A stretch of DNA of 29,707 nucleotides from the IMG/VR virus record IMGVR_UViG_3300045738_000428, positions 1 through 29,707 of that record. One strand, written 5' to 3'. The position numbers and the translations under genes are program-made. This document shows, piece by piece, positions 11,416 to 29,707 of this stretch (its first letter is position 1; each line of letters starts with the position of its first letter). The stretch comes from a virus. Below the pieces are notes generated by a model. The model did no database searches and was not told the origin of the DNA. It worked only from the letters and a program-made list of their open reading frames with translations.

Positions 11416-11419
11416 GCTG

Positions 11420-11427: not shown

Positions 11428-11487
11428 TGCATAACTACCTCTAATGAGATAGCCATACTAAATACTTACTAACTATGTATTGTTAGA

Positions 11488-11673: not shown

Positions 11674-11691
11674 TATTTCAATTTTTAATTG

Positions 11692-12266: not shown

Positions 12267-12281
12267 ATTACAAAGGAGGTA

Positions 12282-12416
12282 CTATTTATTGCTAGTACTG
12301 GTCCTATTTCTTCTAGTATTTTTCTTGCTGGCATCCTTTATTTCTCTCTTATTTAGATAGTCCTTTAGAGCTATCTCATTATTAATTTTAACATATCTAG
12401 TTTTTTTAGCTTTCAT
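12282..12416 (-). CDS. Small very basic protein (44 aa)
   Basis: MKAKKTRYVKINNEIALKDY followed by a Lys/Arg/Asn/Ser-rich tail (KKNTRRNRTSTSNK). The ATG is one base after the stop of the connector gene, and the codon style matches the neighbours, so it is probably real. The basic tail suggests nucleic acid binding or a capsid-interior role, but the family is unknown. Confidence 0.55.
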   Translation of the reverse strand: MKAKKTRYVKINNEIALKDYLNKREIKDASKKNTRRNRTSTSNK

Positions 12417-12417
12417 A

Positions 12418-12990: not shown

Positions 12991-13002
12991 AATTACACTT
13001 TT

Positions 13003-14883: not shown

Positions 14884-14901
14884 TTTTATATAATTTTATC
14901 A

Positions 14902-15495
14902 TTAAGGTACATGTATATAATTTTCATCAGTATCTATCTGGCTAGAGGCCACTTTATCAGTATGTTCTGTATAACTTACCTCCCCACTAGTGAGCTCTCT
15001 ATGCTGTAGAGAGCCTGCATGAGGCCCTATAGGGTTACCTAGTCTTATATCATCATATTGCTGGTCAGTAACTAGTAGGGCTTTACCTCTATCTACCTCA
15101 CTTAGAGATAAAGCATTAAATAAAGTTCCTGAAGTTAGTGTAGTTCTATTAGGATAGGAGGCAATATCATTATGCTCATATAAAACATACTCCCAATACC
15201 CTCTAGGCTGTAATTGTACCCTACCAATAGAGCCATCAGGAGATTGTAATAAGGTAGCAAAAAAAGCCCCTGATATATGCCTATCCCCCCCTATGATAAA
15301 ATCTTCTGAGCTTCCTTGTGCATCATCTTTTATTAAGGTAACATTTACCATCTCTCTAGTTGTATCATTAGTGAGGCTCAGTATTAGGGCTACATTAGGG
15401 TTATCTTCTTCTACAGATTTTCCATCCCAGTCATATTGTAGCTTATCATTATTAAAGGTACACCAATTACTACCCTCCTGCTTTAATAGTAACAT
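14902..15495 (-). CDS. Hypothetical 197-aa structural protein
   Basis: Beta-rich sequence (GSNWCTFNNDKLQYDWDG, VALILSLTNDTTREMVNVTL, GRVQLQPRGYWEYVLYEHND) with an LLVTDQQYDD strand near the C-terminus. It looks like an Ig-like or beta-sandwich virion protein, perhaps a head decoration or adaptor. It lies between the 57-aa gene and the portal; the start is one base after the preceding stop. The family is not recognised. Confidence 0.6.
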   Translation of the reverse strand: MLLLKQEGSNWCTFNNDKLQYDWDGKSVEEDNPNVALILSLTNDTTREMVNVTLIKDDAQGSSEDFIIGGDRHISGAFFATLLQSPDGSIGRVQLQPRGYWEYVLYEHNDIASYPNRTTLTSGTLFNALSLSEVDRGKALLVTDQQYDDIRLGNPIGPHAGSLQHRELTSGEVSYTEHTDKVASSQIDTDENYIHVP

Positions 15496-15496
15496 G

Positions 15497-15670
15497 TTAT
15501 TTATCTTCTTTAGTAGCAGCTTTTACCTCCTCAAAATATTTATCGTACCCCTGGCTCATTACTAGTGTTATTTGTTCCTGGTTAAGAAACGCTAGTTTTA
15601 TAATTTTTACCCCAGGGCATATAGAGGTATCTTTATACTTATTCTTTATTTTATAAATTTTATTAGCCAT
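15497..15670 (-). CDS. Small conserved-looking 57-aa protein
   Basis: I take ATG 15670 (MANKIYKIKNKYKDTSICPG), although the frame also opens at an upstream start, because the upstream ten codons look like leader. The body (VKIIKLAFLNQEQITLVMSQ, then GYDKYFEEVKAATKEDK) resembles short proteins encoded in Bacteroidota phage head modules. The C-terminal helix is charged. It is the first gene after the terminator and a candidate -7 box. Role unknown. Confidence 0.6.
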   Translation of the reverse strand: MANKIYKIKNKYKDTSICPGVKIIKLAFLNQEQITLVMSQGYDKYFEEVKAATKEDK

Positions 15671-15697
15671 AGCTTTTATTAGTAAATATAAAAAAAC

Positions 15698-15705
15698 CAA
15701 AAATA
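15698..15705 (-). promoter_or_regulatory. Candidate -7 box after the terminator
   Basis: TATTTTTG on the minus strand fits TAnnTTTG and lies 28 bases before the ATG at 15670 and just past the bidirectional terminator, where transcription would have to restart. No -33 TTG is seen. Confidence 0.35.
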
Positions 15706-15711
15706 GTAAAG

Positions 15712-15747
15712 AAAAAAGGGTTAATACTAAGATTAACCCTTTTTTTT
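15712..15747. terminator. Bidirectional rho-independent terminator
   Basis: A perfect stem GGGTTAAT / ATTAACCC with loop ACTAAG, flanked by six A on one side and eight T on the other, so it can end transcripts on either strand. It follows the 176-aa structural gene by about two dozen bases. It separates the capsid transcription unit from the portal unit. Confidence 0.9.
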
Positions 15748-15770
15748 ATCATGAAAACTATATTAAACTC

Positions 15771-16301
15771 CTAATAAGCAGGAGAAATTGTAGAATTTGT
15801 AATATTATCAAATGGATTAGTAGTGTAGGCACCCGCATTTCTCATAGGCTCCCCCTCCTGAGATGTGAATGTTAAATCGTATCCATTCAAATCTCCTAGA
15901 GCTGCTCCAGTACTGCCAGTACCAGCTGATAACTCAGCTCCATTCTTTTCTCCTATTACCCATTGATTATCATTATTATCTAGGATGTATATTACTAGTC
16001 TATTTTGTACTAATAATTTTATCTCATCTCTATCTGTAGCACTAAGTTTATGTAATTTGATATTTACAGCCCCCTCATAAAAAATTGTACCGTTTTCTGG
16101 AGATGATTGAATTGTCTCTGTAAAGCTCCCTATACCTTTAGCTAACTCATATCTCATTAAAGTATCTGCTACTATAGCCGATAGTACATTCCCAGTATAA
16201 GTAGGGCTATAATCGGCTACTGACTGAAATAGTATAGTACGGATGCCTCCAATATAGTCTTTGCAATCTAATAATCTACCAGCTGTTAAAACACATGCCA
16301 T
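15771..16301 (-). CDS. Small structural protein of Bacteroidota phages (tail-tube-like)
   Basis: A 176-aa protein starting MACVLTAGRLLDCKDYIGGI, with RYELAKGIGSFTETIQSSPE, ENGTIFYEGAVNIKLHKLSA and GAALGDLNGYDLTFTSQEGE. This pattern is widespread next to capsid genes in Bacteroidota phages and is usually annotated as a structural protein; the alternating strands and the Gly-rich loop would suit a tail tube subunit. It follows the major capsid gene and ends at a strong terminator, in keeping with abundant late expression. Confidence 0.6.
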   Translation of the reverse strand: MACVLTAGRLLDCKDYIGGIRTILFQSVADYSPTYTGNVLSAIVADTLMRYELAKGIGSFTETIQSSPENGTIFYEGAVNIKLHKLSATDRDEIKLLVQNRLVIYILDNNDNQWVIGEKNGAELSAGTGSTGAALGDLNGYDLTFTSQEGEPMRNAGAYTTNPFDNITNSTISPAY

Positions 16302-16316
16302 AATTTTACTTTTTTA

Positions 16317-17228
16317 TTAGTCCATTAATACTATATCACCACCCTGAGCATGTTGTACTCCAGCTGTAAATTTGCATACTACTCTTACATTATCTGAGCC
16401 ATCTAGCTCACTCATATCTAGCATTTTTACCTCTGTAGTATCACTCATTAAATCAGTACCGAAAAACATATTTGATTTTTGAGCTGCTACCATCTCATCT
16501 ACAGGTAACCCAGGGCAAACTGCAATTTTTATACCATTATACATAGGAGCAAAACCATCCCCCATATTGTATAATTGCTGGTAGCCTAAAGTGGCCTGGC
16601 TCTCTAAGTAAAATCTGTAAGCTACTGTGCCCATGTAAATATACAGGTCATCCTTAGGATAGACTGCTGTAGGTATAGATGCTACTAATTTAACTAGGTT
16701 AGTTACTATTGTAGCTGCTGTATATGCTGAAGCATTTGCTGTTTGTACTACTGTAGCATCATTACCAGCCTGTAAAAGACCTGCTGTAGCATGATTAAAC
16801 CCAGTAAATTCTCCTGTTGTACCATCAGTACCAGTCCAAATATGGTCCTCTATAGCATCAGCTATAGTATCTGATAAATGGCTTACTACAAAGCCAGCAA
16901 AATCAGAGCTCATATCTCTACTCCATGCTCCACTACCCATCTGAGCAGCCTGCCAGTCAGCTAGTAAGTCCTTTTTACAAAGGTCCACATTTATCTGTAG
17001 CTCTTTTGGGTTTAATACTCTCTCAGTAAGAGTAATAGTACCAGCATCAGTAAAATCACATGTAGCATCCTTTATTAAATTTTCTGTTGCAACCTTAGTA
17101 ATGTTTCTTTTGAATTTTACATTTTCTAGTACTGTTAAGTACTCTAAACTAGCAGCAGAACGCAAAGCGGCCCCTATGTATTGACCTGCATGCTCTCCAG
17201 CGTAGTTACTTGTAATTGAATATCCCAT
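16317..17228 (-). CDS. Major capsid protein (HK97-like)
   Basis: A 303-aa protein with an HK97-type layout. The N-arm is MGYSITSNYAGEHAGQYIGA, followed by the E-loop-like LTERVLNPKELQINVDLCKK, a spine-helix region and an A-domain (AVYPKDDLYIYMGTVAYRFY, DEMVAAQKSNMFFGTDLMSD, VVCKFTAGVQHAQGGDIVL). It is preceded by a scaffold-like gene and an XkdF-like protease. The A-rich leader AAAAAAATAAAATT lies just before the ATG. Length fits a small T=7 head. Confidence 0.8.
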   Translation of the reverse strand: MGYSITSNYAGEHAGQYIGAALRSAASLEYLTVLENVKFKRNITKVATENLIKDATCDFTDAGTITLTERVLNPKELQINVDLCKKDLLADWQAAQMGSGAWSRDMSSDFAGFVVSHLSDTIADAIEDHIWTGTDGTTGEFTGFNHATAGLLQAGNDATVVQTANASAYTAATIVTNLVKLVASIPTAVYPKDDLYIYMGTVAYRFYLESQATLGYQQLYNMGDGFAPMYNGIKIAVCPGLPVDEMVAAQKSNMFFGTDLMSDTTEVKMLDMSELDGSDNVRVVCKFTAGVQHAQGGDIVLMD

Positions 17229-17250
17229 AATTTTATTTTTTTAGTCCTTT

Positions 17251-17937
17251 TTAATTTTTACCATTTAAGTTATGCCAGTATTTATCCTGTACTGACATAG
17301 CCCTATATATAGATGGAGAAACAACTTGTTTAGTAGTTTCTTTTCTAAATTTATTTACTTTTATTGCCTCTGTAGCAGGAGCTTTTTCTAGTTTAGCTAC
17401 TTTCTTAGATAATACTTCTTTTTCAGCCTCTATTGATACTATCTCCTCCTCTAAAGTTATAGTATTACCCTCTAATAACTCTCTAACCTCATTAATTTGA
17501 GATTGTAAACCAGATACCATCTCCTTTACTGCAGCTGATAGCTCAGAAATTAATGCATCTTTGTACGCTAGAGCCTCTTTATCAAATTCTACCTCTCTAG
17601 TCTCTTTTACTCTCTTAGGCTCTCTCTCAGAGGCCTCTATTTCTTCTTCTGGAGCTTCTTCTGGAGCTTCTTCTTCCGTATCCTCCTCTAGTATTTCAGC
17701 TACTAACCCATCCTCATCTACTCTAAAATTTAATCCTGCTTCAGTAATATACTCCCCTACTGGTAATGGTATTGTAGTTCCATCTTCTGTAAGTACTGAT
17801 ATATCAACTCCAGCTACCAACTCATCAGCTGTACTAGTAATTATAGTTCCATCCTCTAGCTTGTCTTGATATGCTAATTTTACCCCTGGCTTATCTATTC
17901 CTAGGGCTATTCTAATCTGTTCTTTTAATGATGCCAT
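17251..17937 (-). CDS. Scaffold-like protein
   Basis: A 228-aa acidic protein. The N-terminal ~75 residues are beta-like (KLEDGTIITSTADELVAGVD), followed by a Glu/Pro repeat tract (EEAPEEAPEEEIE), then a long coiled coil at about 125-195 (LISELSAAVKEMVSGLQSQI...EAEKEVLSKKVAKLEKA) and a basic tail (SIYRAMSVQDKYWHNLNGKN). Coiled coil plus position between protease and capsid is typical of scaffolds. The GAAGCTCC-type repeat at 17641-17690 codes for EEAP units. Confidence 0.7.
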   Translation of the reverse strand: MASLKEQIRIALGIDKPGVKLAYQDKLEDGTIITSTADELVAGVDISVLTEDGTTIPLPVGEYITEAGLNFRVDEDGLVAEILEEDTEEEAPEEAPEEEIEASEREPKRVKETREVEFDKEALAYKDALISELSAAVKEMVSGLQSQINEVRELLEGNTITLEEEIVSIEAEKEVLSKKVAKLEKAPATEAIKVNKFRKETTKQVVSPSIYRAMSVQDKYWHNLNGKN

Positions 17938-17954
17938 AATAAGGTCCTTTATTA

Positions 17955-17962
17955 CAAATATA
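17955..17962 (-). promoter_or_regulatory. Candidate -7 box of the capsid operon
   Basis: TATATTTG on the minus strand fits TAnnTTTG and lies 17 bases before the scaffold ATG, in a 37-base gap between protease and scaffold. No clear -33 element is present. High demand for capsid protein makes a promoter here reasonable. Confidence 0.35.
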
Positions 17963-17974
17963 ATTTATGTTATT

Positions 17975-18874
17975 TTATTGTCTTTTTGCTAGTAGTTTTT
18001 TATTACACCATCTAAGCATGGGCTCTCCTCCCCACAAATCAAAATTGATTGGGCCACAATGCGAAATAAGCCCCTTGGCTGTCTTTTTAGCGTTTTTAAG
18101 GTACTTTTGGAAGATTTCAATGGTCTTATGCTGCATAGGCCTTTTGGCCTGTAAAAAGCGTGCCTTTTGGATTATACTTTTATTCGCACACTTGCAGCCA
18201 GATAGCTCATTTTTTATCATAGCTTTTTGGCTAACCTCTACAGCTCCTTTAGGGTAATCATCACTATATTTATCTAGGTCTAGTATACTAGCTAGCTCCT
18301 CTAGTATTCTTTTATTACCATTACTAGTCATTTTCTGCATTTTATCTATAAAATACCCCTCAATACTATACCCTTTTACCTCTCCTCTCTTAATCATATC
18401 CCACATTGTTTCATTATCTATTTTCATAGATACCATCCAGGTACCTTTAGGTAGATTTTTGAAGCCATATAATCTAGCTTTATCCATTTTAGGGTTATTT
18501 ACTATCCAGCTCTCTACTGTAGTAATACCTGCTATCTTATCAGTATGCTCATAAGTAGCTGATTTTTGATTATTATGTATTAGATAGAGCTCACTAGCTT
18601 TTTTTACAGTATCAGTAGAAAAATATACATAATACTCCTCTCCTGTTTGCTCATCTACTCTAAAAATTTGCTTATTAGGTATTAAAGCAGGGCCTATTAC
18701 TAGGCGTTTCTCCTTATCTACTTTAGCTAGGATAAGATTATTCTTTTTATGCTTATTAAGAAATACCCAATTTTGCTCTATTGCAGGGCTATTTACTAAA
18801 CTAATAGCATCTATTGCTAGCTGAGCCTGCTCCTCATCTATTACTAGCTCTACTATTTTTGTACTTTTTTTCAT
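17975..18874 (-). CDS. XkdF-like prohead protease
   Basis: A 299-aa protein using the ATG at 18874 (MKKSTKIVELVIDEEQ); an in-frame GTG 24 bases upstream is less likely. The N-terminal ~180 residues match the XkdF-type phage serine protease: LAIDAISLVNSPAIEQNWVF, LVIGPALIPNKQIFRVD, YYVYFSTDTVKKASELYLI, ATYEHTDKIAGITTVESWIV, LPKGTWMVSMKI and VKGYSIEGYF. The last ~85 residues (YPKGAVEVSQKA...CKCANKS...HCGPINFDLWGGEPMLRW) form the second domain found in many relatives. It lies just before the scaffold and capsid genes it would mature. Confidence 0.8.
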   Translation of the reverse strand: MKKSTKIVELVIDEEQAQLAIDAISLVNSPAIEQNWVFLNKHKKNNLILAKVDKEKRLVIGPALIPNKQIFRVDEQTGEEYYVYFSTDTVKKASELYLIHNNQKSATYEHTDKIAGITTVESWIVNNPKMDKARLYGFKNLPKGTWMVSMKIDNETMWDMIKRGEVKGYSIEGYFIDKMQKMTSNGNKRILEELASILDLDKYSDDYPKGAVEVSQKAMIKNELSGCKCANKSIIQKARFLQAKRPMQHKTIEIFQKYLKNAKKTAKGLISHCGPINFDLWGGEPMLRWCNKKLLAKRQ

Positions 18875-18890
18875 ATCATTAATTTTTTTA

Positions 18891-20813
18891 TTATACACTA
18901 GCTCTCCTCCTTATTTTATTTAGTCTAGACTGGCTATTTGTCATCTCATCTGTTAGTACATACGCTTTTACAGATTGGGTATCCATTAATGCTGTAGCCT
19001 TTCTACCCATTTGCATGGCACTAGATGTAGCTCCTCCTCTAGCAAATCCTATTCCCCCTCCTGCCACATTTATATTAGATAATAATGGTCTAAAAGCTCT
19101 AGCTGATTGGGCATTTATTACTACCTCCCCTCTGCTTAATCTTGCAGGTATACTATCACTAGTACCACTACCATACCCTTTAATCCAGCCCCCTCTAGCC
19201 TTACCCCCCTCTGGAGGTATAGGTATTTCTGTATTTCTGATAGTTTCTATCTGTTTCATTCCTGCAGCTACAGCCATCCCTGCTGCTATAGGAGCCAAAA
19301 TAGGCCCTATATAAGGTATTCCTGCTACAGCATTAAATGCCTGTTGAGCTCCTGTAGCTGTTCCCATGATAGCCTCAGCTATTTTTAGAGCTTTCCAGCT
19401 TTCAGTACCCTTACCAGCCATATTTGCAGCCTGGGCTAGCATATCCCCTACAGCTGCTAGCTGTTGTTTTTGTAAAGCTATCTCAGCGGCAGCCTCAGCT
19501 TTAGCTATAGCCCCCCTTACATTTCCGTATTTTTTCCTTATTGCAGCTGATAATGCCTCTGAATTTTCCATACCTGCTACCTTAGCTAGGGCTGCTTTCT
19601 CATCTATATCAGCTAATGTATAAGCTCTCTCTATTGCATTATCTATAACAGCCAGGGTATTCTCTTTATCCAGGCCTGCTAGCATAGCTGCAGAGGCTTT
19701 TGCTGCTGTTTCTTTTACCTTTAGTGCATCAGCCTCAGCTTTAGCTACTTTTTTAGCCTCATCTGATACCCTTTTAGCCTCAGTTTTCTTTTTAGCTATT
19801 ATTTCTAGGTTTAATGCCTCTACCTCAGTCATTAATCTTTTTTGCGTCATGGTAGATTGGGTAGTCATATTAATCAGCTCTACCTCTAAGGCCATTAGCT
19901 CCTCCTCATCTTCTATCATGCTCTCTCCTAGTGCTAACTCGGCAGCTTTTGCAGCTACTTTCTTTTTCTGTAATGCTATTAGGTCTGAGGTCATTTTTAA
20001 TTCTAAGGCCATTACCTCATTTATAGCCTCTAGCCTTTTCTCCTGGGAGAGGCTCTCATCCATAGCTAAGAGCCGAGCCTTAGCCACTTCTTGCCTAGTT
20101 TGGGCTCTAACCTTTGAAAATTCCATCTCCTCTCTCCTTATACCCTGCATAATCCCTTTTAGCCTCATAGCTGCATCTGCCTCATCATTCATCTCCTTTG
20201 CTACAGCTTTAATACCATCTGCAAATGCCTTTTGTTGCTCAGCATCTAGCCCAGTACCTACCTGTATTAATGCTGTACCATATTCTTTAGCCCCCTCAGT
20301 AACCTCATCCCAATCCATAGAAAATACACCTTTAATAACCCTCCCTAGAGCCTTAAAGCCATCTATAAACCCTGTAATCCTGTTCATTAAATTTTTCTTT
20401 ATTGCCTCCCATAAATCAGTAATAGCCTGCTTAGGATTTTTGAAAGCCCCTACCATAATCTCTCCTGCTTTAGAGAATAAATCAACAATTACATCTACAA
20501 CAGCCCCCATTCCTGCTAGTGCTCTCTCTAGCATTTCGGCTCCTCTCTGTGTTTTCTTAAAATAAGCAAATAGAGCTATTACACCCAATACTAGGGCCCC
20601 AATTCCACTACTAATCATACCAGCTTTCATAGTACCAAACATCATTTTAGCAGCCTTACCTACTGCAGCCATAGCTAATTTAACCTTACCCATAGCTCCA
20701 CTTAAAAGTGTTGTCTCAGTAGTAGCAGCCTTAGTACCACTACTAAGTTTACCTACATCCTTAGAGGCTCCTTTAGCATCAGTTGTTATCTTTAAATGTA
20801 CATTCTCAGCCAT
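18891..20813 (-). CDS. Tape measure protein
   Basis: A 640-aa protein that sets tail length. It has the usual build: start MAENVHLKITTDAKGASKDV, a hydrophobic stretch at about 55-85 (MMFGTMKAGMISSGIGALVL), long Ala/Lys/Glu coiled coils (about 200-370 and 420-480), a second hydrophobic segment (AIMGTATGAQQAFNAVAGIP, then YIGPILAPIAAGMAVAAGMK), and a Gly-rich C-terminus with ARLSRGEVVINAQSARAF typical of tape measures. At about 640 residues the tail would be fairly short (roughly 100 nm by the usual rule). Confidence 0.9.
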   Translation of the reverse strand: MAENVHLKITTDAKGASKDVGKLSSGTKAATTETTLLSGAMGKVKLAMAAVGKAAKMMFGTMKAGMISSGIGALVLGVIALFAYFKKTQRGAEMLERALAGMGAVVDVIVDLFSKAGEIMVGAFKNPKQAITDLWEAIKKNLMNRITGFIDGFKALGRVIKGVFSMDWDEVTEGAKEYGTALIQVGTGLDAEQQKAFADGIKAVAKEMNDEADAAMRLKGIMQGIRREEMEFSKVRAQTRQEVAKARLLAMDESLSQEKRLEAINEVMALELKMTSDLIALQKKKVAAKAAELALGESMIEDEEELMALEVELINMTTQSTMTQKRLMTEVEALNLEIIAKKKTEAKRVSDEAKKVAKAEADALKVKETAAKASAAMLAGLDKENTLAVIDNAIERAYTLADIDEKAALAKVAGMENSEALSAAIRKKYGNVRGAIAKAEAAAEIALQKQQLAAVGDMLAQAANMAGKGTESWKALKIAEAIMGTATGAQQAFNAVAGIPYIGPILAPIAAGMAVAAGMKQIETIRNTEIPIPPEGGKARGGWIKGYGSGTSDSIPARLSRGEVVINAQSARAFRPLLSNINVAGGGIGFARGGATSSAMQMGRKATALMDTQSVKAYVLTDEMTNSQSRLNKIRRRASV

Positions 20814-20941
20814 TTTTTTAATTTATGTTTACCATTTATATTATCATTATCTATGTCCTGTATTTCTGGTAATATTATTTTTAAGCTCCCTATTCCCAGC
20901 AGCATATTTTTTTTTATTATTTCCAATATCTTCCTATTCAT
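20792..20941 (-). CDS. Small 49-aa reading frame before the tape measure
   Basis: MNRKILEIIKKNMLLGIGSL continues through IILPEIQDIDNDNINGKHKL to KKWLRMYI. It fills most of the gap between the fibre and tape-measure genes and overlaps the latter by 22 bases. Composition is plausible but Ile/Lys/Asn-rich, as random AT-rich DNA can be. An in-frame GTG further upstream would add GLKRLKM/GLKRKKM from the tandem repeat. Weak call. Confidence 0.35.
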   Translation of the reverse strand: MNRKILEIIKKNMLLGIGSLKIILPEIQDIDNDNINGKHKLKKWLRMYI

Positions 20942-20985
20942 TTTTTTGCGTTTTAAGCCCATTTTTAAGCGTTTTAAGCCACTTT
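20939..20985. repeat. 21-bp tandem repeat plus copy B of the 24-bp repeat
   Basis: On the plus strand CATTTTTTTGCG-TTTTAAGCC (20939-20959) is followed by CATTTTTAAGCG-TTTTAAGCC (20960-20980), 19 of 21 bases identical. The second unit belongs to a 24-base stretch (20962-20985) identical to 12086-12109. The GCGTTTTAAGCC core thus occurs twice here, in a gap between genes. Confidence 0.85.
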
Positions 20986-21032
20986 CTCCCACTTTATAGC
21001 ATCATACCTACCAGCTATATTTTCTATCCATT

Positions 21033-21947
21033 TTAGTCTCCTCCTCCCTCTCCTCCCTCACCACCTAAATTTACCCCTGTTCTAATCTCAGTAAATTCTA
21101 CTGTAATTACCCATTCTATTATGCAGTTAGTTTCTCCCCTTACATTCATTTGAAAATCTGTACCTGAAAAAGCCCCTGTAGGCCTCCAGTCTGTTACAAC
21201 ACCACTACTAGCAATACTCCTCCTAGACTGGGCTACACTAAGGGTACCATCTTTGTTTATTACTACCCCTCTTTGCATCCAGGATGCAAAATCTCCTACA
21301 GCCCCCTCCTCATTCTCTCCCCCTACTCTTACAGCTAAACAATGAGCATTAAAGTACATGGCTGTATCAGTAGGTACAGGAAATTTAGTAGCCCTGGTAT
21401 TATCATTATTCAGATAGGAGGTTACTGTACTACCTGCAGTAGTTTGTACTCCAAATAGCACTCTAGTATATTGCCTCTCCCCTTGTATATCTTTTGTTTC
21501 TACTCTAGTAGTAGTATTATATACTAGATGATTACCCCCTTGTACCAGAGCATTATCTACAGTAGCCTCAGATAGAGTACCTATAGCTACACTATTTTTT
21601 AGATTAGATAGTATAGAATTTTCTCTACCAGATAATAAATTATTTGTATTACTTTCTCCTAAGGAATTTAGGGTACCATTTATAGTATTATTTACACATC
21701 TATCTAAGTAGTGGTTTGCCCCTCCATTTACTGAATTAAGGGTATTATATTTTGGCACAGAGGGCTGAAATTTTACATGGCATCTACTATCTGTTATATT
21801 CCATCTAAACCCATAAATCTCACATTGAGCTTTAGTAGGGAGAACATCTACTAGTACCCCCTCCTCATTAAATTGCTCATAGATAACCTCTTTAGTATTA
21901 CTATCTATCTCTTTTGGTTTTACTGATTGCCCTAGCTTAAAATCCAT
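21033..21947 (-). CDS. Tail fibre / adhesin-like protein
   Basis: A 304-aa protein. Residues ~70-140 show repeated short units (NTINGTLNSLGESNTNNLLS, GRENSILSNLKNSVAIGT) resembling the head repeats of trimeric adhesins, suggesting a trimeric beta-roll fibre. Then come beta-rich domains (VLFGVQTTAGSTVTSYL, DWRPTGAFSGTDFQMNVRGE) and a Gly/Glu tail (GGEGGEGGGD). It follows the tail-tip gene with a one-base overlap, as receptor-binding fibres often do. One frame away at the 3' end lies a protein-like extension (see findings). Confidence 0.6.
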   Translation of the reverse strand: MDFKLGQSVKPKEIDSNTKEVIYEQFNEEGVLVDVLPTKAQCEIYGFRWNITDSRCHVKFQPSVPKYNTLNSVNGGANHYLDRCVNNTINGTLNSLGESNTNNLLSGRENSILSNLKNSVAIGTLSEATVDNALVQGGNHLVYNTTTRVETKDIQGERQYTRVLFGVQTTAGSTVTSYLNNDNTRATKFPVPTDTAMYFNAHCLAVRVGGENEEGAVGDFASWMQRGVVINKDGTLSVAQSRRSIASSGVVTDWRPTGAFSGTDFQMNVRGETNCIIEWVITVEFTEIRTGVNLGGEGGEGGGD

Positions 21948-24151
21948 TATAAATCTTTTATTGTTACTAGCTCTATAGTACTTATATCTCCAGCTTTATA
22001 CTCTATCTTTAGTACTCTATATATTTTATTTTTTATTCTTACCACATCATTAAATCTAAATGCTGATATATCTGCTGATAATAATTTTATTTTCATAGTT
22101 ACTATCCTGGTATTTTTACTATACAGCTCATCTATATATTTACTCCAGTACAGATTATATAGCGTATTTATTATAGTAGTATAGCTAGAGGTATCATGGT
22201 TATACTGCATCATACCAAAATCATTACTCTCAGATGTAGCTACTACTGGGTAATCCTCTACTGGAGAGAATAATGGGCACGAATATTGATGTGAGGTTAA
22301 TCCTGCTGGGAGGCCACCACTATAATTCCAAAATCCAAAAGAGCTACCAGCCCATATACTTTCATAGGCTATATTCCAGTTAGCAGGGGTAGGGCCCCCA
22401 GGGTAAGGAAAAATAACTACTCCGTTATCAAATAGGCACCTCATTCCGTTATCCCATTTTTCATTTAGCCCCTCATCCTGTATAATAGGGCAGCGTAAAT
22501 GACTATCAAAAGGTCTATCCATGTAGGTAGAGGATATACCATTTACCTCTATAATCTCCTCTACTACATCAAATATCTCTACATCTATATTAAATCTAGT
22601 ATGAGAAAATAACCAGCTATTAGGGGAATTTAAGTTTTTAGTAATATAATCGCTTTCATCCTCTTTTTTTTGGAATATTAACCTCCTAGCTAGACCATCA
22701 ATAGGGGTAAGTCTTTTCTCCTCCTCATCTGCTTTAGAGGTCCAATCTAGAATATTACCAGTATCTACCCAGTCTTTCCAGGGCTCAATAATTATATTAT
22801 TTTCGTTATCCTCATCCTGTAAGAATAGGAGGTTGTATTTTGTAATAAAAGATTTTACAAAATCCCATTGACTTATATCTCCTCTAGCCCCAGCTAGTAC
22901 TCTATTTAGTTTTGTATGCCCCGTTCCTGTATTACCTGAATAAGACCTATACTCTGTATGGCTACCAGGTAGTAGCTGTACTGTACCACTAGTACATCTA
23001 ATTTTTACACTCATGGTATCTCCTGGAGCACAGTACAGGAGGCCAGGATTAGGTATATTTACCTGCTGCCCATTAGTTACAGTAGCATAGTATGTACTTT
23101 GTGTTACCCCGTTGTGTTTGGTCCTTATTGAAATATCCTGTGAGCCAGAACACGAAAAAATTACAAACCCAGCAAAACTAAAATAATAAGTTCCAGGAGA
23201 TACTAAATTATCATAGGTACCAGTATCTACATAAAGCTCCCCATCTATGCCTACTGTAGCTGAGGCTGCTGTATAATCTATTGTATCCATAGTATTCCCA
23301 AAAGTTTGTGCTAGATTAGGCTCATCTGAAAAGATAGAAAAATTAGTAGAGCCATGTGCATCATTAAAATCTACATATTGTTTAGTAAATGTAGATGAAT
23401 TCAAAAAAGTAGATGTAAATGAATACCCAGCCTCAGAAAATATCCTCATGAATAAGTAATAGGCTTGTACCCAGGGCCTAAAAAAATCATTAAAACTAGT
23501 AGCTCCTGTATTTGCACTAAGAGTAGGGGCTGTACCCCCTACCTGATGTACATACTCATTATTCCATAAGCACAAAGGATATTTTACTATATCTGACCTA
23601 TCAGAGCCAGGAGTACCAGCAAATGTACCAGCAGGCAGTACAGTAGATAGTAGTACCCCTAAATTACCTGGATAAGTCCAGCTATCTATTATTATCTCCT
23701 CATTATATATATGGTCTAGCTCTGATAAATCTAAATCTCTAAACGATTTATTAGAGAGTATATCTTTTATTGTAATAGATGTAGAGAAAATAGTAATTTC
23801 ATAACTGATATTTTTGCCAACATGTATTATATCATTAAGCTGTAAATAGCCATTAAATATATCTATGCTACCCTCTTTTATTTTGCATCTGGTTTTTTTA
23901 TGAGGGTTAAAATCCGTATCAGCTGTTACATCATGTATATGATTAAAAAATAAATTGTTTTTTTTAGTACCTGGTATTTCAAATGATTTACTATAAGAGC
24001 TAGATTTTTCAGCAACATTAGTATATTCATCCATGCTAAGCACTAAAGGAATAGGCTCATCTTTATACAGGTCAAGAAATTCCTCCCCTTTTAAGGGGTA
24101 GGGGCTAGTAGCTGTAAGGCTTTGAGGGTATACTATTAACTGGGTTTTCAT
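21947..24151 (-). CDS. Tail tip / baseplate-like protein
   Basis: A 734-aa protein. The N-terminal ~180 residues (PLVLSMDEYTNVAEKSSSYS, KSFEIPGTKKNNLFFNHIHD, SIDIFNGYLQLNDI) are a recurrent start of large Bacteroidota phage tail proteins, comparable to hub or distal-tail proteins. The middle holds beta-sandwich-like sequence (VSPGTYYFSFAGFVIFSCSG), and the C-terminus (KIKLLSADISAFRFNDVVRI, KNKIYRVLKIEYKAGDIST) returns to a hub-like domain. It overlaps neighbours by 4 and 1 bases. Baseplate role is inferred from position and pattern. Confidence 0.6.
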   Translation of the reverse strand: MKTQLIVYPQSLTATSPYPLKGEEFLDLYKDEPIPLVLSMDEYTNVAEKSSSYSKSFEIPGTKKNNLFFNHIHDVTADTDFNPHKKTRCKIKEGSIDIFNGYLQLNDIIHVGKNISYEITIFSTSITIKDILSNKSFRDLDLSELDHIYNEEIIIDSWTYPGNLGVLLSTVLPAGTFAGTPGSDRSDIVKYPLCLWNNEYVHQVGGTAPTLSANTGATSFNDFFRPWVQAYYLFMRIFSEAGYSFTSTFLNSSTFTKQYVDFNDAHGSTNFSIFSDEPNLAQTFGNTMDTIDYTAASATVGIDGELYVDTGTYDNLVSPGTYYFSFAGFVIFSCSGSQDISIRTKHNGVTQSTYYATVTNGQQVNIPNPGLLYCAPGDTMSVKIRCTSGTVQLLPGSHTEYRSYSGNTGTGHTKLNRVLAGARGDISQWDFVKSFITKYNLLFLQDEDNENNIIIEPWKDWVDTGNILDWTSKADEEEKRLTPIDGLARRLIFQKKEDESDYITKNLNSPNSWLFSHTRFNIDVEIFDVVEEIIEVNGISSTYMDRPFDSHLRCPIIQDEGLNEKWDNGMRCLFDNGVVIFPYPGGPTPANWNIAYESIWAGSSFGFWNYSGGLPAGLTSHQYSCPLFSPVEDYPVVATSESNDFGMMQYNHDTSSYTTIINTLYNLYWSKYIDELYSKNTRIVTMKIKLLSADISAFRFNDVVRIKNKIYRVLKIEYKAGDISTIELVTIKDL

Positions 24152-25620
24152 CCCTGCTGAGTATTTATATTATAACCTACCTGTATTTCTATTTCGTATT
24201 GAGCCACTTTATCATTAGCCTTAGTATATTTTTCATATTTATCAGATTTTACTATTACAGGGGTTGTATACCTACCTACATCTGGCTGGCTACCATCAGT
24301 AGTCTCAAAGCTCTCTAAAATGTACACCTCTGGGGATATAAAAAGCTGCTCTAACCAAGTAGCCTCCTCATCTGTTCGTACCCAATCAGAATTAGCCCTA
24401 ATAGTTTCTGTAGCTGTACTATTTAATACTGACTTACCCCTACTAAATCCTGCTCTTATGTATCTAGAGCCCCCCCACTCCCCTCTTACTGAGTTATATT
24501 CTGTTCTATCTATATCTATCTCTCTATATGATTTTTTTGTAAAATTATAATAATCCCAGGCACCCCACCTATTGAGCCAGGTAAGCCTTATAGTATCAAA
24601 TCCTTTACAATCATCCTCCTGCTTATTAAATATATATCCTTTACTAACATAGGTATGGTCAGCTCCATTCCCATAAGCATATACTACATAATGAGTAGTG
24701 GTGGGCCATTGAGCACTAAAAAAAGCATTATTTATTAAATTACCAGGGCCACATCCTAAAAATTGTACATGTTTTACAGCATCAGTAAGGCTAGTATCTA
24801 GAGAGCCATCATAGCCTCCATTTGCTGCAGTAGCATCTATATAAAATCCAGAGGCTACAGGGTACATCATTACTAAAGCCCTCTCCCAAACATTATTACC
24901 TGCATCAGTACCTCCTGCTAAAAAGCCTAGAGTATGATAATCTCCATCTCTTACAAATTGCCCTATTTTCATCTGCTCCTCCCAGTCGCTAGGGGTACCA
25001 GTAGGGGCATCTGTAAGGAGCTGGGCTACATTCTGATTTAATATCATAGGCCCAAATGGTCTATACTTATCTTTAGTATTAGTAGCTTGAAGCTCTAAGC
25101 CCCACTTTCCACCTGAAAAATTTTGTACATTTTCCCCTATTACAGCATTCCAAAACGCATAATCCCTATCCCCAATTTTATTAGGATATATGCCAATCTC
25201 AGAGGTGGGGAGGCTGCTGTACTCCTCTCCAAATTGAATATCCACCCTCTTTATTGTATTAGTAGATAGGCTCCATTTATCTATTACATGTATAGGGGTA
25301 GCATTCCCATATAAAAAAGAGGGGGCCGTACCCTTAAATTCTGGGGTTATAGTAAAATCACTAGAGCATAAATTATCAGAGGATACATGTTGAGTTAATA
25401 TCTCATGTAGGTTTACTATCCCCCTACCTAGCTCATTAGGAGAAAATTTTAATCTTATAGTATATGTAGCTGGAGGGGTTGAACCACTATAAATATATAA
25501 ATCAGCAATAAATTTGAATTTATAATTACCTGCTAAATTAGTAGATGATAAAGTCCACACCCAGTCCTGGCCTGCTGGCCCAAATTTTGAATAAGGTTTT
25601 TGTACTATTGTTATTGCCAT
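24148..25620 (-). CDS. Large tail-associated structural protein
   Basis: A 490-aa protein beginning MAITIVQKPYSKFGPAGQDW, with Ig-like beta segments (NYKFKFIADLYIYSG, TIRLKFSPNELGRGIVNLHE) and a C-terminal part (DTIRLTWLNRWGAWDYYNFT, KKSYREIDIDRTEYN). Similar proteins stand in front of tail-tip genes in Bacteroidota phages, but no precise function is established. It overlaps the tail-tip gene by 4 bases. Confidence 0.6.
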   Translation of the reverse strand: MAITIVQKPYSKFGPAGQDWVWTLSSTNLAGNYKFKFIADLYIYSGSTPPATYTIRLKFSPNELGRGIVNLHEILTQHVSSDNLCSSDFTITPEFKGTAPSFLYGNATPIHVIDKWSLSTNTIKRVDIQFGEEYSSLPTSEIGIYPNKIGDRDYAFWNAVIGENVQNFSGGKWGLELQATNTKDKYRPFGPMILNQNVAQLLTDAPTGTPSDWEEQMKIGQFVRDGDYHTLGFLAGGTDAGNNVWERALVMMYPVASGFYIDATAANGGYDGSLDTSLTDAVKHVQFLGCGPGNLINNAFFSAQWPTTTHYVVYAYGNGADHTYVSKGYIFNKQEDDCKGFDTIRLTWLNRWGAWDYYNFTKKSYREIDIDRTEYNSVRGEWGGSRYIRAGFSRGKSVLNSTATETIRANSDWVRTDEEATWLEQLFISPEVYILESFETTDGSQPDVGRYTTPVIVKSDKYEKYTKANDKVAQYEIEIQVGYNINTQQG

Positions 25621-25629
25621 ATTGTATTA

Positions 25630-26181
25630 TTATTTTAATGCTCCTCCTGTAGCCCTTAAAAATTTAGCTACATCTGAGGCGTATGCTTTTATTACCTCTT
25701 TAGGTAATCTTTTCCAATGCATAGTAAAGGCATCTCTCCAGTACCATCTAGGAGGTATTCCCTTTTCACTTATAGCCTTACCTATTAGATAAGCTGCACT
25801 ATTTATATTGCTCTCATTTTTAGTAATAAATTTACCAGTAGATAAATCTCTCAATTTTAAGGGTTTTATTCTTATCCAATTTCTTAATACAGAGGGTGGG
25901 GGAGCCTTTTTACCAGCCTTTCTCCCATATTCCACATATTTATGATGTTTAGCCGACTTAGTACCGAAAAGGAGCTCCACAGCCCCAGAGGGGTACACCT
26001 TTAGAGAATATCCTAAGCTATCTGATAGCTTTTTCTCTCTAGTATTAGATGGTCCTCTACTGAATTTTTTGCCTGGTTTACCTTTTCTATTAGCTAAATT
26101 CCATTTAGCTCTATCTATTACTTTTTTAGCAAACCTATGTAGGGCCCTCTCAGTCTGTTTTAATTGAATAGCCTTAAACAT
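25630..26181 (-). CDS. HK97 gp10-like head-tail joining protein
   Basis: A 183-aa basic protein with the gp10-type pattern: an N-terminal helix rich in Lys/Arg (ALHRFAKKVIDRAKWNLANR), LSDSLGYSLKVYPSGAVELL, a FGTKSAKHHKYVEYGRKAGK motif and a C-terminal helix (WYWRDAFTMHWKRLPKEVIK). The family takes part in tail completion and joining head to tail. Insertion around residues 100-135 makes it a bit longer than usual. Confidence 0.7.
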   Translation of the reverse strand: MFKAIQLKQTERALHRFAKKVIDRAKWNLANRKGKPGKKFSRGPSNTREKKLSDSLGYSLKVYPSGAVELLFGTKSAKHHKYVEYGRKAGKKAPPPSVLRNWIRIKPLKLRDLSTGKFITKNESNINSAAYLIGKAISEKGIPPRWYWRDAFTMHWKRLPKEVIKAYASDVAKFLRATGGALK

Positions 26182-26187
26182 AGCTTA

Positions 26188-26652
26188 CTAAACAGCAGCT
26201 ATAAATACCTCTAATCTAACATCTGCAGCCTCTATAGGTCTGGCCTGTATTTTATTAAGGTCTATCAAGGCCCCAAAAGAGGGTACACCATCGGCCTCCG
26301 TATCCATACACTCCTCTGCTGAAAATAATAGGTAGCTCTCTCCTGCCTTTACCGACATAGTACAATTTCTGTATTCCTCAACCCCATCGAAAAGGATAAA
26401 TGCTAGCTCTACTGAATTTGTACTATCTAGATTAGTAACACGAATATATTTAGTTTGTCCTAAATTGAAAGTACCATTACCAGCGTACTCAGTTTCTCCA
26501 AAATTACAGATAGTAGTAATCTGCCCATTAGTACACTTTACTGTACGCTTATATACATCTACTATATCTGTAATTGTTTTGGCGTTTGTAGAGCCTACAG
26601 CTACTGAGTTTATTGTTAAATCTTCTGTAATTGTAATTGTTAAATCTGCCAT
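26188..26652 (-). CDS. Small beta-rich virion protein
   Basis: A 154-aa beta-sandwich-like protein (MADLTITITEDLTINSVAVG, TDIVDVYKRTVKCTNGQITT, TKYIRVTNLDSTNSVELAFI, AGESYLLFSAEECMDTEADG). The size and pattern suit a minor virion or tail tube-like protein in Bacteroidota phages. It is preceded by a 123-base gap without a gene, so it may have its own 5' control, but no convincing promoter was seen there. Confidence 0.55.
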   Translation of the reverse strand: MADLTITITEDLTINSVAVGSTNAKTITDIVDVYKRTVKCTNGQITTICNFGETEYAGNGTFNLGQTKYIRVTNLDSTNSVELAFILFDGVEEYRNCTMSVKAGESYLLFSAEECMDTEADGVPSFGALIDLNKIQARPIEAADVRLEVFIAAV

Positions 26653-26775
26653 TTTTCTAAAATTTATTTAGTATCATTATTGTAATATCACTTTTTTTAT
26701 ATTTTTGTTTTACCTTTTCATTCCCCTATATCTAGTAGCTTGTTCTACTTTTTTACCTATTTTGTTTTACCTCTA

Positions 26776-27345
26776 TTAACCATCATCACAATCAGCCTCT
26801 CCCTGTATTACCTGAGCTGTTACATTTCCATTATCCTCAACCTCCCCTACTACTACTGTAGAGCCATCCCAGGAACATACACTATAATCAAAAACCATTG
26901 TAATAGAAAATTGCATATTCCAGCCTGCTACATTATCATCAAATTTTTCTGTAAAAGGCTCTAATGTAAAGGTCTCACTAATTTCATTAGTATAATCATA
27001 ATGAAAGTTTGTAGTAGGATAATTTAGCAATCCTCGCCCCCCTCTTTTTAACCAGGCTACTATATCTAATAGTATACCAGATGTAGAGGATAATACATTA
27101 TGCTCATTAGTTTCTCCTGGCTCTACTAGGTCCATACAGATAAGATTAAAATTATATTTTACTTGCTTATCTAGGGCCTCCATAGATGTAGGTACTACCA
27201 TACATAAAGGATATACTAATTTACCTGCTGTAGAAATTTCCCAAGCATCTCCAGTTTCAGCCATATTTACCTGGGGGTGGTCTCTACATATACATAGTAG
27301 GGTATCTACTACATTCTTAAAAGTTTTTATTTTATTACTGCCCAT
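26776..27345 (-). CDS. Tail completion-like protein
   Basis: A 189-aa protein (TFKNVVDTLLCICRDHPQVN, LVYPLCMVVPTSMEALDKQV, NFNLICMDLVEPGETNEHNV, DNVAGWNMQFSITMVFDYSV). The alternation of helix and strands and the late FxxxxAGWNMxF motif resemble tail terminator/completion proteins of phages with contractile or flexible tails. It begins one base into the tail chaperone stop (TAATG), matching the usual neighbourhood. Family call is tentative. Confidence 0.5.
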   Translation of the reverse strand: MGSNKIKTFKNVVDTLLCICRDHPQVNMAETGDAWEISTAGKLVYPLCMVVPTSMEALDKQVKYNFNLICMDLVEPGETNEHNVLSSTSGILLDIVAWLKRGGRGLLNYPTTNFHYDYTNEISETFTLEPFTEKFDDNVAGWNMQFSITMVFDYSVCSWDGSTVVVGEVEDNGNVTAQVIQGEADCDDG

Positions 27346-27590
27346 TATTGCCCTCTGTATTTATTTAATCTTTCCTGCTCTTTATTTACCTCAGAATTTA
27401 GAGATAACCAATTTAAGCATTCATTTACTGGCCTCTTAATTATTTTATCTACATTTAGTATATTGTCTTTTGCCATATTATATATTACTAAAAACCATCC
27501 ATATTTTTCTGCTAGTGTATTTTTAGAATTTAGCTCCTCTCTATCTGTACCATAGAGCTCCTTTTCTTTTGCTGTTTCTCCAAATAGCAT
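27345..27590 (-). CDS. Tail assembly chaperone, downstream frame (T part)
   Basis: The 81-aa frame from ATG 27590 contains AEKYGWFLVIYNMAKDNILN and VDKIIKRPVNECLNWLS, the sort of short helical segment encoded by the second half of tail assembly chaperones. The same frame is open 36 bases further upstream to the T9 run at 27625, so it is probably translated mainly as the end of a fusion with the 211-aa protein: 180 residues of that gene plus 93 from this frame, 273 aa in all. Confidence 0.7.
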   Translation of the reverse strand: MLFGETAKEKELYGTDREELNSKNTLAEKYGWFLVIYNMAKDNILNVDKIIKRPVNECLNWLSLNSEVNKEQERLNKYRGQ

Positions 27591-28165
27591 AGCATAGTCT
27601 CTCTGTGTTTGTTCCCTATATCGTAAAAAAAAACCAGGGCCCCGTAAGCCGTATCTATACTAAGGCTCTTACTAAAGAGCTTAGCCCTAGTACTAGCACT
27701 ATCTATATCATACTCCTCTATTATATATCTACCCTCTAATCTTTTTACTACAGGCCTATAAAGGATAGTTAGTATCTCTACTAAATTTTTATACCCCTCC
27801 TGTAGCCAGGTATCCAGGTCTACAAATTCTCCAAAAGTGAGATTTTTCATATCTGGGATAAAACCATATTCTACACCCTCTATCTCTACTACCCTAGTAA
27901 GGTCTTTGTTCGGCATATTTGCAGTTAGTAGCCCTAGTGTAGCATATACCTCTCTTAGATGGCTTACAGGAGCTTTAATAAGTTGCCTCTCCTCTACTCC
28001 AGTAAGAGCAGCTATAGTCTTTACCATTAGGGATATATCAGATAGTTTATCATCTTCTACTAGTATCATTACATCCTGGTATTGTTTAATATTAACCTCA
28101 TCCCAGCTTACAGGCAAATGATAGCTCTCAGTTTTTTTACCTACCTTTATTTCTAATCTAGTCAT
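27530..28165 (-). CDS. Tail assembly chaperone, upstream frame (G part)
   Basis: A 211-aa protein (VSWDEVNIKQYQDVMILVED, LMVKTIAALTGVEERQLIKA, NLTFGEFVDLDTWLQEG, YKNLVEILTILYRPVVKRLE) with the mostly helical make-up of tail chaperones that bind the tape measure. Near its end, GTT TTT TTT TAC provides a -1 slippery site. If no shift occurs, translation stops at 27530. The 61-base overlap with the next ATG frame is much longer than elsewhere in this genome, a further hint of frameshifting. Confidence 0.7.
   Translation of the reverse strand: MTRLEIKVGKKTESYHLPVSWDEVNIKQYQDVMILVEDDKLSDISLMVKTIAALTGVEERQLIKAPVSHLREVYATLGLLTANMPNKDLTRVVEIEGVEYGFIPDMKNLTFGEFVDLDTWLQEGYKNLVEILTILYRPVVKRLEGRYIIEEYDIDSASTRAKLFSKSLSIDTAYGALVFFYDIGNKHRETMLCYLEKQQKKRSSMVQIERS
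27626..27632 (-). promoter_or_regulatory. Probable -1 programmed frameshift site (T TTT TTT)
   Basis: In the frame of the 211-aa gene the bases read GT[T TTT TTT] TAC, an X-XXY-YYZ heptamer inside nine T (27625-27633). After a -1 slip the next codons are TTA CGA TAT AGG GAA, open into the downstream ORF. No strong downstream hairpin is obvious. A sequencing error in the T9 run is the main alternative. Confidence 0.65.
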
Positions 28166-28182
28166 TTTTAATAAATATAAAT

Positions 28183-28212
28183 TTTGTTAATTCAGTTTTT
28201 TTATTATCTTTG
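28183..28212 (+). promoter_or_regulatory. Plus-strand promoter of Bacteroidota type
   Basis: TTTG (28183-28186) and TATCTTTG (28205-28212), 18 bases apart, fit the -33 TTTG and -7 TAnnTTTG consensus very well. It is the best-formed promoter in the window and points against every protein gene. Confidence 0.65.
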
Positions 28213-28215
28213 CCC

Positions 28216-28298
28216 TGTGTATTTCATGATACATAATTTTCATTGTCGTTGTATGGGAGATTTGCTGGCCTGGGAATAGGCTGGCATCTCCTTTTTTT
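28216..28298 (+). ncRNA. Predicted plus-strand phage small RNA (~80 nt)
   Basis: Starting a few bases after the -7 box, the RNA would fold into a 5' hairpin TGTGTAT / ATACATA with loop TTCATG (28216-28235), a single-stranded centre (ATTTTCATTGTCGTTGTAT), and end at a strong intrinsic terminator (28256-28298). No open reading frame of note lies on it. Function is unknown; a regulatory, decoy or packaging RNA are all possible. It is the only plus-strand transcription unit I can support. Confidence 0.6.
28256..28298 (+). terminator. Intrinsic terminator of the plus-strand RNA
   Basis: GGAGAT pairs with ATCTCC; after a TT bulge GCTGGCCT pairs with AGGCTGGC around loop GGGAAT (two G-T pairs), and seven T follow. 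About 14 pairs and the T run make it strong and directional; the minus strand lacks a T run behind the stem. Confidence 0.85.
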
Positions 28299-28361
28299 GG
28301 TACCTTTTGAGCACGCTGCAGGCCCCTTTTTACATTTTAGGGTTATCACATAGCAAAGGGG

Positions 28362-28502
28362 TTAAAGTTGCTTAAATCGTATTTTTTTACCTTTTCTGCT
28401 GTACCTCTTTTTATTCTTATGTATCCTAGTAGAAATATGTTGAGCTGAGCCCCTCCTTACCTCTCTAGCTATCTTTTTTTTATCCTCCTTAGTAAAGCCC
28501 AT
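28362..28502 (-). CDS. Small basic protein after TerL (46 aa)
   Basis: MGFTKEDKKKIAREVRRGSA, then HISTRIHKNKKRYSRKGKKI and RFKQL. It is highly basic (about 40% Lys/Arg), and its ATG overlaps the TerL stop by one base (TAATG), so it is coupled to the terminase. The family is not recognised. A nucleic-acid-binding or packaging accessory role would fit the position. It ends in a TAA before an intergenic stretch of about 200 bases. Confidence 0.65.
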   Translation of the reverse strand: MGFTKEDKKKIAREVRRGSAQHISTRIHKNKKRYSRKGKKIRFKQL

Positions 28503-29707
28503 TAGTGTACATAATATTTACCTGTATTAGGGTTAATCTCATAGTACATTCTCATCATCATAGTATCAGCATAATCTGGCGACCTCCCTATTAGGTCTCT
28601 TACCTTATCTTTACTCAGTATAGTAAGTTTACTATCCTTATCTATATTTGTTCTCCTTACCTGCTCTAGCTCCTGTATTAGATGCTCCTTAAATTTTATA
28701 TCGTTAGTACTAACCCCTATCTGGCCCTTATTAATTAACTCTCCTAGCTTATAGTAGCATTGGGTTTTGAGATTAGCATAATTCTCTCCTTTTAGAGGTT
28801 TGCTACCATTAAGAAAGTTTTTACACCTGAGTATATCAGCAGCTCCTCCTCCAACACCATCAGCATCCACTACTATATTAGTAAGCAGTACCCCCTCTCT
28901 CTGTTGTATCTCCCTAATCCTATCAGCTACCTCTACCATGCTACTACTAGCTATTGTTATTATCTGTGTTACCTGTAGGCCATTCCATAGCATAATACAT
29001 GTTTTATCCTTACCAAATCTAGCAATATCAGCTGTTATATACTTATCTCCTGTAGGTACTATGCTACTAAACATATTAATAATGCTATCATAATTTAGGA
29101 GCTGGTCCTGGCTCTCATCATACTCCCAGTCTCCTCTAAGTAATCTAGCCTTACTAATCTCATCTAGATGCCCTAGCTGATTTTTGTAATGCTTAGAAAT
29201 ATGCTTATTATCATCTACTAAAGCCTGTATAAATTTTCTATGTTTAGCTAGGTTATTATCTCTAGAGGGCTTGTAGAATGTTTGATATACCCAGCCCTTA
29301 GAGGGGTTACAGGTCATGAGAAATTTAGGTATTAGGTTATACTCATCTAGCTTATATCTGAGCCTACTAGATACTATCTGCTTAGCTTTCTCTGTTAGCT
29401 GGCTTACCTCATCTGCAAATGCAAATGTGAGCTCTAGGCTCCCTAGGCTATCAAAATTTTGGTCTGCTGGATACTGGTATAGGTCCTTTAATATTATTTC
29501 ACTACCATTATAAAATGTAATGATATTAGCCTGTGCATTGTAATTATAATGCTCTCCAGCCTTTATGCCCCACAGATGGCATATATCAAAAAATGTGTTT
29601 AGGGTTGTTTTCTTTAGGGTATCTAATTTGCTCCTCCCTATCATGCCTCTAATACCAGGATATTTTAAGCAGGTAATAATTGCCCAGCAGCAGCCTATAA
29701 AACTTTT
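28502..29707 (-). CDS. terL: Terminase large subunit (N-terminus beyond window edge)
   Basis: The packaging motor and nuclease. The frame is open to the right edge and its first visible codons read K-S-F-I-G-C-C, the end of a Walker A motif (G-x-G-K-S), so about 40-60 N-terminal residues lie outside. Counting from the edge: Walker B LELTFAFADE ends at ~100, the coupling motif TCNPSKGW is at ~132, and the RNase H-like nuclease aspartates are in ITADIARFGKDKT (~227), VVDADGVG (~281) and SPDYADTMMMRMYY (~378-381). The ATG at 29644 is internal, not the true start. Confidence 0.95.
   Translation of the reverse strand, partial: KSFIGCCWAIITCLKYPGIRGMIGRSKLDTLKKTTLNTFFDICHLWGIKAGEHYNYNAQANIITFYNGSEIILKDLYQYPADQNFDSLGSLELTFAFADEVSQLTEKAKQIVSSRLRYKLDEYNLIPKFLMTCNPSKGWVYQTFYKPSRDNNLAKHRKFIQALVDDNKHISKHYKNQLGHLDEISKARLLRGDWEYDESQDQLLNYDSIINMFSSIVPTGDKYITADIARFGKDKTCIMLWNGLQVTQIITIASSSMVEVADRIREIQQREGVLLTNIVVDADGVGGGAADILRCKNFLNGSKPLKGENYANLKTQCYYKLGELINKGQIGVSTNDIKFKEHLIQELEQVRRTNIDKDSKLTILSKDKVRDLIGRSPDYADTMMMRMYYEINPNTGKYYVH

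Follow-up and report, generated by a model that had tools for sequence, protein, structure and literature searches.

A syntenic family of predicted RNA genes lies between terL and the gene that follows it, here denoted g2, in a large group of Flavobacteria-type Bacteroidota phages, which are uncultured and in many cases marine. The promoter-RNA-terminator unit and its conservation are supported by sequence comparison; actual transcription, action in trans, start-codon pairing and a host target are what we infer. The best reading of the comparative data is that this is a new family of a known kind, namely, phage small RNAs that carry a promoter and a terminator of their own (reviewed in PMC12197685). 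We lean toward the view that the cassette is a noncoding small-RNA gene that is driven by a host sigma factor and acts in trans, likely against host messages. No description of this family was found in the literature searched, with most subscription journals lying outside that search. To our knowledge, most of the phage small RNAs described so far come from phages of E. coli, Salmonella, Vibrio and Pseudomonas. The family appears to be an undescribed, widely shared RNA gene that occupies a fixed place readable in any genome of the group and is missed by gene callers because it codes for no protein. It provides a set of defined RNAs with which targets can be sought and a clear test of whether Bacteroidota phages use FopS-like RNAs against their hosts.

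A promoter-terminator cassette opposite to the phage genes

The window, i.e. the entire stretch of DNA analyzed (29,707 bases), is a virus record that is cut inside terL, and all its long genes lie on the minus strand, in agreement with the initial annotation. The 3' part of terL (28502..29707, minus strand; phrog_2 match, E 7.7e-29), which is cut by the window end, is followed by a basic 46-codon ORF overlapping the terL stop (28362..28502, minus strand) and then by g2 (27530..28165, minus strand; phrog_32199 match). The latter two flank the cassette, which lies on the plus strand of the 196-base gap between them. Because terS (57-395) is the last gene and terL is cut at the opposite window end, the record resembles a circular map that has been opened within terL; the records of several relatives have overlapping ends (41-127 bases). 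Elsewhere in the window, g2 overlaps an ORF at 27345-27659 (minus strand), the frame of which is open from 27659, and nine consecutive T (CCCTGGTTTTTTTTTACG, about 27625-27633) inside this overlap form a possible programmed frameshift site joining g2 to the 81-codon ORF. The protein encoded at 395-1147 (minus strand) matches a PHROG labelled queuine tRNA-ribosyltransferase (E 9.7e-55), a label that may be wrong given that its sequence resembles a 2-oxoglutarate-dependent oxygenase more.

The predicted promoter is of the Bacteroidota sigma-A type and consists of a -33 element, TTTG (28183..28186, plus strand), recognized from its sequence and the spacing in relatives, an 18-base spacer, and a -7 box, TATCTTTG (28205..28212, plus strand; consensus TAnnTTTG), which in relatives is found at a near-equal distance from the start of the next gene. 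In Flavobacterium, the TAnnTTTG box occupies positions -12 to -5 (PMC9723704), so that the RNA is predicted to start at 28217 and, with the last T of the terminator as its end, to span 82 nt (28217..28298, plus strand), close to the approximately 80 nt originally proposed. The intrinsic terminator (28255..28298, plus strand) comprises a stem-loop (28255-28292) and seven T (28292-28298); the stem has 14 strict pairs, or 16 in the MFE structure counting G-U. All coordinates initially assigned to these elements, within 28183-28298 of the plus strand, are right. The predicted fold (z = -3.8 for 28217-28298 and -4.1 for 28216-28300) includes a 5' hairpin of 7 pairs (28217..28234, plus strand), a 20-nt unpaired stretch and the 16-pair terminator stem. 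The unpaired stretch contains the motif UUUUCAUUGUCGUUGU (28237..28252, plus strand), a candidate seed or protein-binding site related to motifs that recur in other members of the family. The 5' hairpin, which the initial annotation had pointed out, is present in the window fold and specific to it, being absent from the nearest relative, L001.

Scanning both strands of the window for TTTG-N17-21-TAnnTTTG yields one match, the cassette promoter; with 0.35 matches expected by chance on the plus strand, this lone match proves little. A scan for E. coli-type (sigma-70) promoters, which is uninformative for this phylum, does not rank the cassette promoter, and the number of terminators in that scan is near chance. 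The chance expectation of 0.35 full promoters and the frequency of TAnnTTTG in AT-rich DNA would fit a locus that makes no functional RNA and consists of ordinary promoter and terminator debris or of a hairpin in the gene-strand mRNA; the order and strand bias across relatives, the covariation in the stem and the conservation of the 5' end, all described below, render this explanation very improbable.

Conservation of the cassette in related phages

It is the comparative evidence, not the window alone, that decides that the cassette is real. Relatives were collected by terL searches, which gave 80 loci in IMG/VR and more when a close relative was used as the query; searches with g2 found no further ones. 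Most of these relatives are metagenomic fragments. On the opposite strand of the terL-g2 gap, most of them contain a TAnnTTTG box that lies approximately 30-60 bases inward of the g2 start, and the T run of the terminator usually abuts the terL stop. In most relatives of subfamilies A and B, defined below by RNA sequence, TTTG or TTG precedes the -7 box by 18-19 nt. Among 42 non-redundant gaps, the opposite strand carries the box in 31, a terminator in 35 and both in order in 28, versus 2, 3 and 0, respectively, on the gene strand; dinucleotide shuffles of the same gaps gave 7.1 boxes, 3.85 terminators and a mean of 0.10 ordered pairs (maximum 1 over 40 shuffles), where the box is a short motif and the terminator threshold of -8 kcal/mol, like the class labels used below, is the analyst's choice. 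Gaps shorter than 85 bases are too short to hold the unit and therefore were kept outside this test and counted in the classification of loci instead.

Some 75 of roughly 130 loci have the cassette, and these loci are distributed across the terL tree. Under an automatic rule, 71 classified loci carry it, including the window as well as L147 and L150, which hold a different RNA, and 4 more are probable; in 45 loci the gap is 30-45 bases long and contains no cassette; 10, mostly close relatives of the window, hold other sequence without the box; and 3 have an opposite-strand protein unit in the gap, with a few of these labels being conservative (for example, L048 and L052 are listed as "other"). 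Loci with the cassette cluster on the terL tree (16 changes versus 43 after shuffling), and the distribution of the cassette indicates that it has been gained or lost repeatedly. In complete or near-complete genomes with a detected cassette (23-33 kb), nearly all genes run in one direction and the cassette is the single intergenic unit; other matches to box plus terminator in these genomes are weak and mostly lie within genes. The cassette was not seen in contigs, including prophages, of named Flavobacterium, Pedobacter and other genomes (approximately 50% terL identity), and the nearest isolate, Flavobacterium phage 11b, lacks it and has a terL-portal gap of 34 bases. The INPHARED collection contains no phage record that matches the cassette. 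Patterns specific to the promoter and the body proved too strict when run on viral contigs and produced few matches.

The cassette is missing from about a third of those relatives whose terL is 60-77% identical. This distribution, together with the moron-like units that otherwise occupy the site, speaks against the role in packaging near terL that had been suggested for the RNA. An RNA that served in packaging or primed replication, at terL or at an origin, would account for the position of the site next to terL and for a short RNA on one strand; given, in addition, that the GC skew has no consistent turning point at the cassette site and that Rfam contains no match to the window or its relatives (a cmscan of 28000-28500 of the window to E 5 was empty), we regard this possibility as extremely unlikely.

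RNA sequence, structure and coding capacity

The predicted RNA is approximately 55-80 nt long in most relatives. The RNA bodies diverge almost completely between subfamilies; the window RNA and that of L001 are 49% identical, with the promoter, the initial bases and a TTGTCG motif in common. Subfamily A is the largest, and its RNAs have an invariant GUUUUC at or beside the predicted +1, followed by GUUUUUGUU. These RNAs form a predicted 10-bp stem in which 100% of cells are paired and two pairs carry changes on both sides, a pattern of the kind sought by the covariation analysis that the initial annotation had proposed; the support is lost when the pairing partners are slid. The RNA is more conserved than the four-fold sites of terL (for example, 84 versus 48% identity in subfamily A and 87 versus 54% in subfamily B), a comparison for which such sites and AT-rich gapped alignments are a rough yardstick. 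The terminators of subfamily B (L028, L040, L056 and L070) include sequences such as AGTCGTATCGCTAGGTGCGGCT in L040, which we take to resemble helix 45 of 16S rRNA, near its 3' end, a likeness noticed by eye and post hoc that may be due to chance.

Short motifs recur across different subfamilies. Among 38 diverse RNAs, CATTGTTT is present in 7 (0.14 expected) and TTGTCGTA in 5 (0.05 expected), counts that are not independent of shared descent within subfamilies. These motifs are located in the terminator loop in some RNAs and upstream of the stem in others, and the unpaired stretch of the window RNA, UUUUCAUUGUCGUUGU, resembles both. An exposed motif of the UUUUCAUUGU type recurs among the RNAs and is absent from many subfamilies. 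The motif UUUUCAUUGUUUU is exactly complementary to AAAACAAUGAAAA, which represents an A-rich context of a start codon.

The window RNA contains a 17-codon frame (MIHNFHCRCMGDLLAWE). L001 has ATG-TGA in its place, and the RNAs of subfamily A mostly lack an ATG, which argues against a small peptide product; no ORF is conserved among the window RNA and the RNAs of its relatives. The dedicated plus-strand non-coding RNA that had been proposed for this locus is, accordingly, well supported by the conserved promoter-terminator architecture, the stem covariation and the lack of coding capacity.

The terL-g2 gap as a possible site for accessory units

Other units are found in the same gap. In L147 and L150, its opposite strand holds a different structured 83-nt RNA (AAGUUCUUUGUUUGAUAAAACGAUA...GACAAAGUUC) that has a TAnnTTTG box of its own; these RNAs fold with z values of -4.3 and -4.8, and the near relatives L151 and L155 have nothing at this position. 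In L076, L078, L079, L129, L131, L132, L134, L136-L138 and L145, the cassette is followed by a second opposite-strand unit with its own box, TAACTTTGC or TATCTTTGT, which carries a protein ORF where read, including L076, L078 and L079. In L164 and L168, opposite-strand protein ORFs are alone in the gap. These second units, with their own box and protein ORF, make the gap look like a moron site, and the presence of other RNA and protein units on the opposite strand suggests that accessory RNA and protein genes may use it as a slot. As a tentative extension, the gap could be a dedicated docking slot for RNA genes in which an opposite-strand promoter drives interchangeable RNA modules, such as the dissimilar bodies of the subfamilies or the 83-nt RNA of L147 and L150, or protein morons take their place, each tuned to a host target as an effector of takeover, superinfection exclusion or anti-defence.

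The gene strand of the gap has features of its own. In L003, L004, L115, L116, L119-L121, L123, L126 and L127, terL is directly followed by a conserved hairpin, rich in A+T, and a T run (e.g. CTCTAATTAAGTAATAGAGTTTTTT), and in L003 and L123 this hairpin coexists with the opposite-strand cassette. In L001, a gene-strand ORF of 71 codons (4550-4770), the product of which has a hydrophobic N-terminal part, begins where terL ends and extends right across the opposite-strand cassette.

Potential mode of action and targets

The unpaired 5' or central stretch with a recurrent motif, the terminator, the absence of an ORF and the host-type promoter make action in trans the most likely mode. Under this scenario, host RNA polymerase with the housekeeping sigma factor would start at 28217, on the strand opposite to all phage protein genes, and transcription would end at 28298, releasing an 82-nt non-coding RNA. 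The exposed U-rich motif of this RNA would then pair with the A-rich translation-start regions of messages, most likely those of the host, and thereby block translation, as FopS and GibS do in Bacteroides. The control of host or phage mRNAs that had been suggested at the outset is plausible by this analogy. The search for targets in the phage itself was null: in 18 genomes, pairing with own-phage start-codon regions was no better than that of shuffled RNAs, making a host target more likely. In a crude start-site test on five Bacteroidota genomes that are not known hosts, 0 of 19 AAAACAATGAAAA sites were just upstream of a listed TonB-receptor plug domain, and this test did not point to TonB-dependent receptors.

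The main rival is an effect in cis, whereby the RNA, or RNA polymerase at its promoter, would affect the complementary terL-g2 stretch of the late message, through RNase III cleavage of the duplex or transcription interference, and set the ratio of terL to downstream products or their timing. Over its full length, the RNA could pair with the intergenic segment of the transcript from the gene strand. In relatives, the RNA typically takes up precisely the stretch that separates the terL stop from the g2 leader, and some close relatives without the cassette carry a gene-strand hairpin or terminator-like sequence at the same place. Nevertheless, many relatives have a 30-45-nt gap and no regulatory unit, the window RNA reaches into neither flanking coding region, and interference alone would need no conservation of the RNA, whereas subfamilies A and B conserve both the RNA and its 5' end. 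We therefore find the cis effect rather unlikely.

A decoy or anti-defence RNA, in which the motif and the hairpin bind a host protein (an RNA chaperone, a nuclease, or a CRISPR or CBASS component) rather than an mRNA, would explain the accessory, moron-like appearance of the cassette, that is, its fast divergence, presence-absence polymorphism and replacement by other units, as well as the recurrence of the motif in loops or linkers; phage RNAs that act in this manner exist (Racr; PMC10651486). We consider such a role improbable. In 397 Flavobacteriaceae genomes, the window RNA has no match apart from stretches of the promoter region, where two matches fall that look like AT-rich or promoter sequence, and no convincing spacer or prophage match was found there for window positions 10000-29707. 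Subfamily A produced only short low-complexity pieces by BLAST, and its covariance model gave weak matches (best E 8e-4), so that no host homologue was detected. With no match to an RNA body in the genomes searched, no mimic of a CRISPR repeat or host RNA is seen.

Comparison with known small RNAs

The cassette shows the general attributes of phage sRNA genes, namely, its own promoter, its own terminator, no conserved ORF and evolutionary conservation. Like the OOP RNA of phage lambda, the predicted RNA would be a short phage transcript that has a promoter and terminator of its own and lies on the strand opposite to the operon around it (PMC12197685, PMC5869508). However, OOP is antisense to cII, whereas the RNA at 28217-28298 overlaps no listed gene, being located next to terL, between the g2 start (28165) and the stop of the 46-codon ORF (28362). 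The cabRNA of staphylococcal phages is likewise a small structured RNA from the terminase region (PMC10686824); it is transcribed in the sense direction from terS-terL itself, in contrast to the phage cassette, which is intergenic, outside both genes and on the opposite strand, and has a promoter and a terminator of its own. A packaging RNA of the phi29 type would be expected neither to lack an Rfam match of any kind nor to be missing in many relatives, as is the case here. Racrs also are small promoter-driven non-coding RNAs of phage genomes (PMC10651486), and they differ in copying a CRISPR repeat, whereas the window RNA has no repeat-like match in the 397 Flavobacteriaceae genomes, which possibly do not include the host. 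PreS of lambda and VpdS of VP882 are phage sRNAs that regulate host mRNAs or sRNAs (PMC12197685) and in this respect resemble the proposed function; they come from proteobacterial phages, depend on Hfq, and are set beside the window RNA by description.

The closest parallel is with FopS and GibS of Bacteroides thetaiotaomicron, which repress at start codons, FopS pairing near susC-type starts (PMC11697453). These RNAs are host-encoded, with FopS being multicopy, and have a known R1 seed, PUL/susC targets and the partner RbpB; FopS is reported to be deposited in Rfam (PMC11697453); the RNA described here, in contrast, is phage-encoded and single-copy. The Bacteroides RNAs, at approximately 65-70 nt, combine a single-stranded 5' stretch containing the seed with a Rho-independent terminator and the absence of an ORF, and FopS is driven by a Bacteroidota sigma-factor promoter, as is the predicted case for the phage cassette. 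The phage RNA has the same layout, with a Bacteroidota promoter, a 5' single-stranded stretch, a terminator and a length under 90 nt, to which the window RNA adds its 5' hairpin. This FopS-like layout, size and promoter, together with the complementarity of UUUUCAUUGUUUU to AAAACAAUGAAAA, lead us to prefer a model in which the cassette would encode a trans-acting anti-start-codon RNA.
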